Below, in pieces: positions 10,130-12,079 of a DNA stretch of 39,667 bases (positions are counted from its first letter, which is position 1; every line of letters starts with the position of its first letter). This stretch comes from an uncultured Bacteroidota bacterium (GTDB lineage Bacteria > Bacteroidota > Bacteroidia > Flavobacteriales > Flavobacteriaceae): positions 1 to 39,667 of the forward strand of contig CACJHI010000013.1 in assembly GCA_902593165.1 (NCBI GenBank). Reading direction: 5' to 3'. A program made the position numbers and the translations under genes. Under the pieces are notes generated by a model. The model did not search any database, was not told the origin of the DNA, and saw only the letters and a list, made by a program, of their open reading frames with translations.

Positions 10130-10170
10130 CTAAAACAAGTTTTATAATTTAATAAAGTATTTAAAATTCG

Positions 10171-10200
10171 AAAGCCCGACTCACGAATGAACCGGGCTTT
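10171..10200. terminator. Strong GC-rich hairpin after pirin
   Basis: AAAGCCCG at 10171-10178 pairs perfectly with CGGGCTTT at 10193-10200. A small inner TCA/TGA stem closes a CGAA loop. T tracts on both sides are poor, so it may terminate pirin on the plus strand and the repeat-region transcript on the minus strand. It is the most GC-rich structure in this gap. Confidence 0.55.
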
Positions 10201-10243
10201 CTAATTCTCTTCAAGTGATTCTTAAATTGCTTTAAGTCCTAGA

Positions 10244-10340
10244 TAATCTTTCTGATCATCACTTAAAATTTCACAAGTTATATCTCTGCTTACGCTTTGA
10301 TGTGCTGATTGATTATTTCTGCACTTCTGCTTGATCTTTT
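10244..10340 (-). repeat. Diverged direct repeat, copy B
   Basis: Read on the minus strand this copy starts AAAAGATCAAGC, carries the core CAGAGATATAACTT (10275-10288) and ends AGATTA. It aligns with copy A at a period of about 133 bases. One frame on the minus strand stays open for 43 residues from a GTG (10350) to a stop at 10221, but that frame is closed by stops in copy A. It could be part of a noncoding RNA or a decayed gene. Confidence 0.5.
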
Positions 10341-10375
10341 TTCCTTTAAACACTATTGGGTTTCCAAATTACAGT

Positions 10376-10475
10376 TAATCTTACTGATTTTGTATGTTTA
10401 AAGTTAAATAAGCTATATCTCTGTTTTCACTTTGAATATTATGGCGGATTTTTCCATAATTTCCGCTTATCTTTT
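10376..10475 (-). repeat. Diverged direct repeat, copy A
   Basis: On the minus strand it starts AAAAGATAAGCGG, has the core CAGAGATATAGCTT (10410-10423; 13 of 14 bases as in copy B) and ends AGATTA. Near its 5' end GCGGA can pair with TCCGC, while the overlapping ATTATGG can pair with CCATAAT. The two stems interleave, so they form either alternatives or a pseudoknot. With copy B it fills nearly all of the otherwise gene-free stretch 10201-10559. Confidence 0.5.
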
Positions 10476-10503
10476 ATAAATGTATTAATCTAAATAGAAA
10501 AAA

Positions 10504-10511
10504 CAAATATA
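10504..10511 (-). promoter_or_regulatory. Possible -7 box driving the repeat region
   Basis: On the minus strand this reads TATATTTG, a full TAnnTTTG match, placed about 30 bases before copy A. It would start a transcript near 10497 running through both copies to the hairpin at 10171-10200. No -33 TTG is seen. Confidence 0.35.
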
Positions 10512-10559
10512 AAACGGAAATTGTTAATAACTTTTAGTAAAGATTTTAAAATCAGTTAC

Positions 10560-10625
10560 TTAGCAATCACAGCAATTGCATTCACATGATTTATCACAAC
10601 TACATTGGTTACAGTTACAATCCAT
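10560..10625 (-). CDS. 21-residue cysteine-rich peptide, metallothionein-like
   Basis: An ATG at 10625 opens 21 codons ending in TAA at 10562-10560. Nine of the 21 residues are Cys, at positions 3, 5, 8, 10, 14, 16, 18, 19 and 21. They form C-x-C, C-x-x-C and C-C patterns, and the remainder is Asp, Asn, Gln, Ser, Lys and Glu with no hydrophobic residue after the initiator Met. Such composition is typical of metal-binding metallothionein-like peptides, and chance runs of this kind are very unlikely in such AT-rich DNA. It starts 25 bases after the stop of the unknown 119-residue gene on the same strand, so they may be cotranscribed. The metal and the function are inference; it resembles no exact family I can name. 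Confidence 0.65.
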   Translation of the reverse strand: MDCNCNQCSCDKSCECNCCDC

Positions 10626-10650: not shown

Positions 10651-11010
10651 TTAACTCACAATAATTTTCTTATAATAATTTTCTAACCCTTTTTTATAAG
10701 CCACAACAAATTGGTAAAATCTAAATTCAGTTAAATTTCCATATCTATTAAATTCACTATAAGTATTAGATTGATATTTTTTAAGTCTGTTGTCTAATAT
10801 ATTTTGAACTTTTTGAACCTTTTCAAACTTTAATTTCTTAGTCTTGTTTTGATGTAATTCGGATTCATACTTGTTAATTATTAATCTGACTTCTTTTGGA
10901 GTGAGCTCAGAATATTTTAAAGGATTATTCCAGCTTTTATTATACTCATTAAGTAACCATCTATATTCTGTGAAAAGTCCATTAATAAAACAAATCAGAA
11001 ATACATTCAT
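10651..11010 (-). CDS. Unknown protein, 119 aa
   Basis: Starting at ATG 11010 the protein begins MNVFLICFINGLFTEY, a short hydrophobic stretch that may be a weak signal or anchor. A Lys/Asn-rich, mostly helical body follows with LTPKEVRLIINKYESEL and a Tyr-rich C-terminus (FRFYQFVVAYKKGLENYYKK). A TTG at 11019 in the same frame lies inside the -7 box, so 11010 is the better start and the mRNA would be almost leaderless. It lies directly upstream of the Cys-rich peptide and divergent from tRNA-Arg. No family recognised; a real gene seems likely but not certain. Confidence 0.55.
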   Translation of the reverse strand: MNVFLICFINGLFTEYRWLLNEYNKSWNNPLKYSELTPKEVRLIINKYESELHQNKTKKLKFEKVQKVQNILDNRLKKYQSNTYSEFNRYGNLTEFRFYQFVVAYKKGLENYYKKIIVS

Positions 11011-11016
11011 TAATAT

Positions 11017-11024
11017 CAAAATTA
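11017..11024 (-). promoter_or_regulatory. -7 box of the unknown 119-aa gene
   Basis: Minus-strand TAATTTTG is a full match to TAnnTTTG and lies 6 bases before ATG 11010. It is only 13 bases from the oppositely oriented tRNA box, so the two promoters are packed together. Confidence 0.45.
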
Positions 11025-11054: not shown

Positions 11055-11127
11055 GGGCAATTAGTTCAACTGAATAGAACAGAAGATTACGGCTCTTCAG
11101 ATGGGGGTTTGAGTCCTCCATTGCCCT
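11055..11127 (+). tRNA. tRNA-Arg (anticodon ACG), unusual tertiary bases
   Basis: A full cloverleaf can be drawn. The acceptor stem is GGGCAAT/ATTGCCC (11055-11061 with 11120-11126). The D stem is GTTC/GAAC with a nine-base loop, and the anticodon stem is GAAGA/TCTTC with loop TTACGGC. The T stem is GGGGG/CCTCC with loop TTTGAGT. Anticodon ACG decodes CGN arginine codons after A34 deamination, and A20 in the D loop agrees with arginine identity. Odd points: G19 is A and C56 is T, which still pair; position 15 is A and 48 is T, which also pair; and the discriminator base is T. CCA is not encoded. The paired changes argue for a working tRNA and not a pseudogene. Confidence 0.85.
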
Positions 11128-11140
11128 CAAAATTATTTAT

Positions 11141-12079
11141 TTGGATTTTTTAGGAATTTTATTTGGTATAATACTTCTCTCCCAAGGAGGAGACTTGTTA
11201 ACTAAGTCTTCAGTTGAGATTTCATTAAAATTATCTATTCCTAAAATTATTATAGGTATGACTGTTGTATCCTTTGCTACATCTGCACCAGAACTAATAG
11301 TAAGTCTTAATGCAACACTCGATGGTCTTCCAAATTTTGCAATTGGGAATGTACTTGGATCTAATATTGCAAATATTGGTTTAGTCCTAGGAATAATTAC
11401 TATAATATATCCAATAACATTAAAACAAAGATTTTATAATACTGATTTTCCTTTACTAATGATTTCAACTGGTTTATTTTATTATATAATTTATACTGGA
11501 AATCAAATATCACGATTTGAGGGTTTTATTTTAGTGATAGCAATAATATCAATATTACTATATCTATTTCTATACCAGAGAAATAATTCAAATGAATTCG
11601 CTGAGGATCTTAATAATAAAGATGTTTCAATTTACAGGTCATTCTTATACATAATTTTTAGTGGATCACTATTATGGTTAGGATCAGAGACCCTAATAAA
11701 ATCTGCTGTATCAGTAGCAAATAAGTTTGAAATTTCTGAAAGAATAATAAGTATTACAATGGTTGCAATTGGAACAAGTATTCCAGAGCTAGCAGCTTCA
11801 ATTGTAGCTTCTCTTAAGAGACAGAATGATTTATCAATTGGTAATTTAATAGGTTCAAATATTTTTAACTTACTTGTAGTAATAGGAATCACATCTTCAA
11901 TTATGCCTATAAATGGTATTGAAGAAAGTACAATCTTTAATGATATGCTTTGGGTTATTTTGTTCTCAGCAATTATTTTACCGCTTGCTTATATTGGAAA
12001 GAAAAATATACTTACAAGAAAAAAAGGGATCATATTATTAGTTTTATATCTAATATTTATAATCCCTCTTTTGAGTTAA
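11141..12079 (+). CDS. Calcium/sodium antiporter, CaCA family
   Basis: A 312-residue membrane protein of the YrbG type. It has the two inverted alpha repeats: SAPELIVSL plus GNVLGSNIANI in the first half, and SIPELAASIVA plus GNLIGSNIFNL in the second. These hold the ion-binding Glu and Asn residues. About ten hydrophobic segments span the inner membrane. It exchanges Na+ (or H+) for Ca2+. No ATG fits: the frame opens with TTG at 11141 (MDFLGILFG), and the next Met comes after the first helix. The start is 13 bases after the tRNA, so both may share one transcript. Confidence 0.9.
   Translation: MDFLGILFGIILLSQGGDLLTKSSVEISLKLSIPKIIIGMTVVSFATSAPELIVSLNATLDGLPNFAIGNVLGSNIANIGLVLGIITIIYPITLKQRFYNTDFPLLMISTGLFYYIIYTGNQISRFEGFILVIAIISILLYLFLYQRNNSNEFAEDLNNKDVSIYRSFLYIIFSGSLLWLGSETLIKSAVSVANKFEISERIISITMVAIGTSIPELAASIVASLKRQNDLSIGNLIGSNIFNLLVVIGITSSIMPINGIEESTIFNDMLWVILFSAIILPLAYIGKKNILTRKKGIILLVLYLIFIIPLLS

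Follow-up and report, generated by a model that had tools for sequence, protein, structure and literature searches.

A gene of 21 codons for a peptide with nine cysteines lies on the minus strand of a flavobacterial contig, at positions 10560..10625 of the 39,667 nucleotides analyzed here (the window). It is conserved within its genus, its cysteines are under selection, and it is also present in viral contigs. Judged by its sequence, the peptide is probably a stand-alone micro-metallothionein that would bind metal through its thiolates. On balance we also favor, with less assurance, the broader proposal that it represents a new metallothionein family of 20 to 22 residues, possibly among the shortest known, which T4-like marine phages share with a small-genome, marine flavobacterial genus and whose gene would have passed between phage and host.

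Translation of positions 10625-10560 confirmed the complete minus-strand frame of a preliminary description, running from ATG to TAA and encoding 21 residues with nine cysteines (MDCNCNQCSCDKSCECNCCDC). The residue pattern is MxCxCxxCxCxxxCxCxCCxC. Cys accounts for 43% of the residues and, the initiator Met aside, the remainder are Asp, Asn, Gln, Ser, Lys, and Glu, exactly as had been described; the window copy contains no His and no aromatic residue. As a yardstick, the Cys share in seven long ORFs of the window is 0.9%. The peptide is the sole window ORF of at least 15 aa with 35% Cys or more, and no such ORF arose in 300 windows simulated with a first-order Markov model.

Relatives were searched for at the DNA level in 60 related genomes, using 1,001 bases around the peptide as the query and placing no requirement on cysteine. 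Nineteen bacterial copies were readable; the genus accounts for 18 of them, and the other, in G028, represents a different genus of the same family. All 19 contain C.C..C.C...C.C.CC.C followed immediately by a stop codon, the spacing being identical across 18 distinct peptide sequences, and 18 of them start with ATG (ATA in G004). TGT and TGC both occur in all nine Cys columns, to the exclusion of any other codon, and pN is 0 at Cys codons versus 0.35 at the remaining codons. On a tree inferred from the flanking sequence of 16 copies, the Cys codons changed 0, 0, and 26 times at positions 1, 2, and 3, compared with 29, 20, and 37 times for the other codons. Changes confined to third positions, together with a pN of 0, indicate selection on cysteine in this frame; purifying selection acts on the cysteines of the peptide. 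The preliminary description had made its case depend on homologues with conserved Cys spacing and on substitutions that preserve the frame, and both are borne out: the spacing is kept in the 19 copies, the frame is intact, and every change in a Cys codon is synonymous. The non-Cys positions vary mostly among Asp, Asn, Lys, Thr, Ser, Glu, and Gln. His is absent from all 19 copies, a single Tyr is the only aromatic residue, and hydrophobic residues are hardly present.

Within the genus, the peptide was found in 18 of 25 genomes. The seven genomes in which it was not seen have a listed completeness of 54-87%, at which an assembly gap and a loss are indistinguishable. None of the seven matches the putative exchanger gene that flanks the locus (11141-12079), so that among these no genome of the genus was seen with the flank and without the peptide. 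In G016, the contig ends beside the expected peptide site. In wider samples, the peptide occurred in 3 of 299 genomes of the family (the window's genome, G022, and G028) and in 1 of 395 of the order, the window's own. The class sample gave matches in 2 of 395, the second of which (G960), covering 13 positions at E 0.05, was too weak and partial to be kept. A pattern scan of genome contigs returned at least 119 stretches, almost all of them poly-Cys repeats. Three passed our filter, and one short frame of this kind among the filtered matches listed, L148, belongs to the metagenome-assembled genome Cryomorphaceae bacterium isolate SI034_bin14.

The ORF directly upstream of the peptide (10651..11010, minus strand) encodes 119 aa from the ATG at 11010, or 122 aa if started at TTG, and lacks a confident family match: its two Pfam matches both fall under their cut-offs, and none of the NCBIfam models matched. 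Its stop ends at 10651, leaving 25 bases before the peptide ATG. This spacing had been given in the preliminary description and holds in the window, where the two are perhaps co-transcribed, but the link is incidental and the ORF is not a conserved partner of the peptide. In six relatives (G004, G007, G011, G015, G018, and G019), the gap between tRNA-Arg and the peptide measures 49 to about 95 bases, too small to hold the ORF; stretches resembling it sit on other contigs in G011, G015, and G018, and also occur in G009, where no peptide was seen. What marks the locus in the relatives scanned is a tRNA-Arg(ACG) gene (11055..11128, plus strand in the window), to which the peptide lies close in the genus with or without the 119-aa ORF. 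Beyond the tRNA lies a gene read by eye as a putative cation exchanger (11141-12079). The setting in G028 differs, the peptide being followed there by an ORF that resembles, by eye, a Kazal-like lipoprotein, and the relative of the exchanger gene is found on another contig. Ahead of the 119-aa ORF and the peptide, TAATTTTG (11017..11024, minus strand) matches TAnnTTTG, which we take to be the Bacteroidota -7 element. It is a putative driver of both genes, the match being weak evidence when taken alone, as locus L001 contains 9 matches against 6.6 expected by chance.

On its 3' side, the window peptide is followed by a conserved noncoding stretch and then by a convergent gene. This stretch contains a candidate structured noncoding RNA (about 10160-10511, minus strand) of 200-330 nt, with a promoter-like element by motif match (TATATTTG, 10511-10504, minus strand) and, by eye, a terminal hairpin near 10201-10170 that is rich in GC and accompanied by a short T-run; the terminator scan gave this hairpin no score. 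In eight aligned relatives (L010-L012, L023, L025-L027, and L029), 19 of 47 predicted pairs still pair although both partners have changed; the form in the window's clade is longer, and the fold prediction covers the eight relatives. No Rfam family came near its gathering score for the candidate, and none exceeded it at the peptide site. Of the 60 genomes, only those of the genus gave matches longer than 45 bases. In the interval that separates the peptide from the candidate, AAAGTTATTAACAATTT (10518-10534, minus strand) is nearly invariant in 16 aligned copies and is perhaps an upstream promoter element of the candidate.

The occurrence of the peptide in viruses is new relative to the preliminary description. 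A first pattern scan of IMG/VR returned mostly poly-Cys repeats along with at least 27 loci encoding clean peptides of 20-22 aa, for example MKCNCKVCNCGTSCDCSCCNC, and a 36-aa form in L221. With an ATG and a stop codon required, at least 120 stretches were found for the 21-aa form (77 distinct sequences) and 54 for the 22-aa pattern (38 distinct sequences). All 120 listed 21-aa stretches and all 54 of the longer ones are clean short frames; three of the latter start with MM and may be 21-aa forms. A scan for a doubled form gave at least 120 stretches, and L221 was the sole clean case among the filtered matches listed.

In these viral pattern sets the Cys spacing was a search condition and is by itself no evidence for conservation. 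As a control set, viral loci were collected through a neighboring dehydrogenase gene, taking the best 80 of 592 matches; the anchor was a peptide-bearing locus, itself among the 80, and the set is not an estimate of prevalence. Where at least 600 bases lay upstream, the canonical peptide was present in 23 of 62 loci, plus a 24th, L403, whose listed short ORF starts at an internal Met of a canonical peptide (L403 and L339 share one contig). The remaining 18 loci contained it in three cases. None of these 80 best-matching loci showed a short Cys-rich ORF with different spacing; either the peptide is there with its exact spacing, or it was not seen in the sample.

Outside the cysteines, viral and bacterial copies have the same preferences. 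Ser precedes the fifth Cys in 107 of 121 viral rows and 15 of 19 bacterial copies, Asn or Asp stands between the first two Cys residues in 111/121 and 16/19, and Asn or Asp precedes the last Cys in 105/121 and 16/19 (the 121 rows include one artefact, L577). Viral non-Cys positions are mostly polar, charged, or small, with Val and Ile also found at one position; a single Phe occurs in the 121 rows, and the Trp comes from the artefact row. The closest host-virus pairs are identical at 17 of 21 residues. These shared preferences speak for a common origin over convergence.

Where tested, the peptide-bearing viral contigs look like T4-like phages. L181 encodes a terminase of the T4 type (PF03237; PHROG terminases), 32 of 133 viral loci have an ORF that clusters with this terminase no more than 6 kb from the peptide, and L190 carries a tail sheath (PHROGs). 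By terminase, L181 comes closest among named phages to the immuto group of Flavobacterium phages (59.7%), which makes vB_FspM_immuto (Immutovirus) its nearest named phage; the 160-kb record of the latter differs in that the peptide was not found there by a profile that finds it in ten viral records. A tblastn search of named phages with two peptide forms gave no match, a result that the low-complexity filter renders uninformative. The ten large viral records, chosen for holding the peptide, contain one gene each. Eight of them are 155-165 kb in size and the others 137 and 211 kb, and three share an identical peptide. In G1066, a repeated unit within the 36-aa form accounts for two overlapping matches. 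The hosts of these phages are presumably marine Bacteroidota.

The ORFs surrounding the peptide were clustered for 133 viral loci, L156 having been removed from the 134 rows as an unrelated Cys-rich ORF. No fixed partner gene emerged, nor was a metal-related gene recognized as a fixed neighbor. The peptide gene shares its strand with the preceding ORF in 124 of 127 loci and with the following ORF in 120 of 128. The next gene belongs to a dehydrogenase cluster in 32 of 128 loci and to a cluster of unknown kind in 29, the rest being various; in 24 of 133, a putative primase ORF, judged by eye (cluster 11), lies close downstream. No neighbor is common to the phage groups, or to the phage and bacterial loci read, which suggests that the peptide acts alone and is probably not the leader of one operon. 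The dehydrogenase of L181 (941-2233) is FAD/NAD-dependent, with a Pyr_redox_2 N terminus and a PHROG "dehydrogenase" assignment. Its cluster is present in 43 of 133 viral loci, and among the matches listed its identity to proteins from Campylobacter phages and fragments of gut phages is about 24-31%. In L207, L224, and L248, larger phage ORFs upstream of the peptide start with a Cys cluster of their own (MCNCGCNTC or MCDCGCNTCE), perhaps a second metal-binding tag.

The product would be a 21-residue microprotein, probably cytosolic, that works as a minimal metallothionein. Its nine Cys thiolates, arranged as CxC, CxxC, and CC, could wrap one metal-thiolate cluster with about three Zn(II) or Cd(II) ions (M3Cys9) or several Cu(I) ions, and the outcome would be metal buffering or detoxification. 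The beta domain of animal metallothionein is an M(II)3Cys9 cluster, for which nine cysteines are a match. With nine thiols in 21 residues, no His, few hydrophobic residues, and fixed spacing, the peptide is expected to fold only around metal. It also has the broad features of metallothioneins, being very small and Cys-rich with CxC motifs; aromatic residues are almost absent from metallothioneins, as they are from the bacterial and viral copies. The 36-aa form of L221, with its added CxC-rich stretch, suggests a modular chelator. T4-like phages would carry the same gene as an auxiliary gene, which may act as a buffer against metal or thiol stress during infection. The metallothionein-like chelator of the preliminary description thus stands as the best-supported function, metal binding being the part we infer, but proved too narrow, for the family is large and extends to viral contigs.

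Other readings account for part of these data. A Cys-rich peptide could act on protein or redox state instead, as a thiol buffer, a metal donor to one protein, or a phage factor that either blocks a host protein or strips it of metal. Near-fixed length and absolutely fixed spacing, seen in the bacteria and in the neighbor-anchored viral sample, are tighter than a loose metal sponge needs, and the dehydrogenase and primase genes that follow some viral copies would suit such a role; against it, no neighbor is common to all phage groups or to the bacterial loci read, and an odd number of cysteines speaks against a fully disulfide-bonded monomer. We regard this alternative as unlikely.

The remaining readings were rejected on the points counted against each. 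A cysteine-sensing leader peptide, whose translation would control the downstream gene, might be short and Cys-dense in just this way, and in the genus the conserved stretch 3' of the peptide is predicted to fold into a structured RNA ending in a hairpin. Such a leader requires Cys codons and not exact spacing, however, no sulfur or cysteine gene was recognized downstream in the window, in G028, or in the viral contigs (mostly by eye or clustering), and among 60 genomes the RNA stretch has its matches of more than 45 bases in the genus only; we consider such a leader very improbable. Equally little speaks for a precursor role, whether for a modified peptide (RiPP) or for a cofactor: size and Cys content would fit, but there is no leader segment, Cys beginning at residue 3, and no candidate modifying enzyme is conserved across all 133 viral loci. 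An ORF of just 66 bases could also be a chance frame, or a conserved DNA or RNA element in place of a protein. The empty simulations, Cys codons that change at the third position only, and flanks that differ among the viral contigs make this hardly credible.

For the micro-metallothionein reading, copper handling in the bacterial hosts is of interest. The copper-exporting ATPase model TIGR01511 matched none of six peptide-bearing genomes (G000, G011, G017, G021, G022, and G028), some with and some without assembly gaps. In the family sample it matched 249 of 299 genomes, and G000, G022, and G028 are among the 50 without a match. Twenty of these 50 were listed; 16 are 2.2 Mb or smaller, and 17 do not bear the peptide. 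An HMA-domain match in five of the six peptide-bearing genomes indicates that other copper handling may exist. Since genome size and ancestry confound the missing ATPase, its link to the peptide is a hint only and no more than suggestive.

If the proposal is true, it adds a viral branch to metal homeostasis, with phages bringing their own metal-thiolate buffer, and makes phage management of copper or zinc in the infected cell testable. Many viral contigs preserve the exact Cys spacing in a gene of 66-69 bases, under the usual length for gene callers, which shows that conserved protein families can exist beneath annotation length limits. As a scaffold for a nine-thiolate cluster, the peptide would be both natural and minimal.

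Neither a phage metallothionein nor the nine-Cys peptide is reported in the open-access literature searched, outside which most subscription journals lie, nor in the accessible parts of PMC7387436, PMC7558416, PMC11118758, and PMC12713726; in that of PMC10607169, the word metallothionein occurs in a reference title. Searches of Pfam, NCBIfam, and PHROGs with three peptide forms gave no family at E up to 1, and PDB sequences gave no match at E up to 10; composition correction may weaken the Pfam, NCBIfam, and PDB tests. The SmtA/BmtA family model did not match, and at 21 aa without His the peptide has neither the length nor the His ligands of that family. The peptide probably works like a metallothionein yet fell outside the described bacterial families in the tests run.

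SmtA/BmtA metallothioneins have about 50-60 aa, more than twice the length of the nine-Cys peptide, and SmtA starts with a CxCxxCxC stretch that resembles it. Nearest in size and in CxC pairs is the copper metallothionein of Neurospora crassa, a eukaryotic protein of about 25 aa with 7 Cys, fewer than here and differently spaced. SmtA and the Pseudomonas metallothionein (BmtA type) are small and Cys-rich like the nine-Cys peptide, but PMC7558416 describes a zinc-finger fold for this type, which also uses His ligands, while His is lacking in all 19 bacterial copies; the Pseudomonas protein is reported to hold a Zn3Cys9His cluster (PMC7387436). Metallothioneins gain tertiary structure after copper binding, according to PMC7558416. 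MymT of Mycobacterium tuberculosis, also described there, is a small Cys-rich protein that is needed for copper resistance and is predicted to take up as many as six Cu(I) ions. Compared by description, MymT is like the nine-Cys peptide in being small, Cys-rich, and encoded by a nonannotated frame, and differs in its mass of 4.9 kDa (PMC7558416), about twice the size of the peptide.
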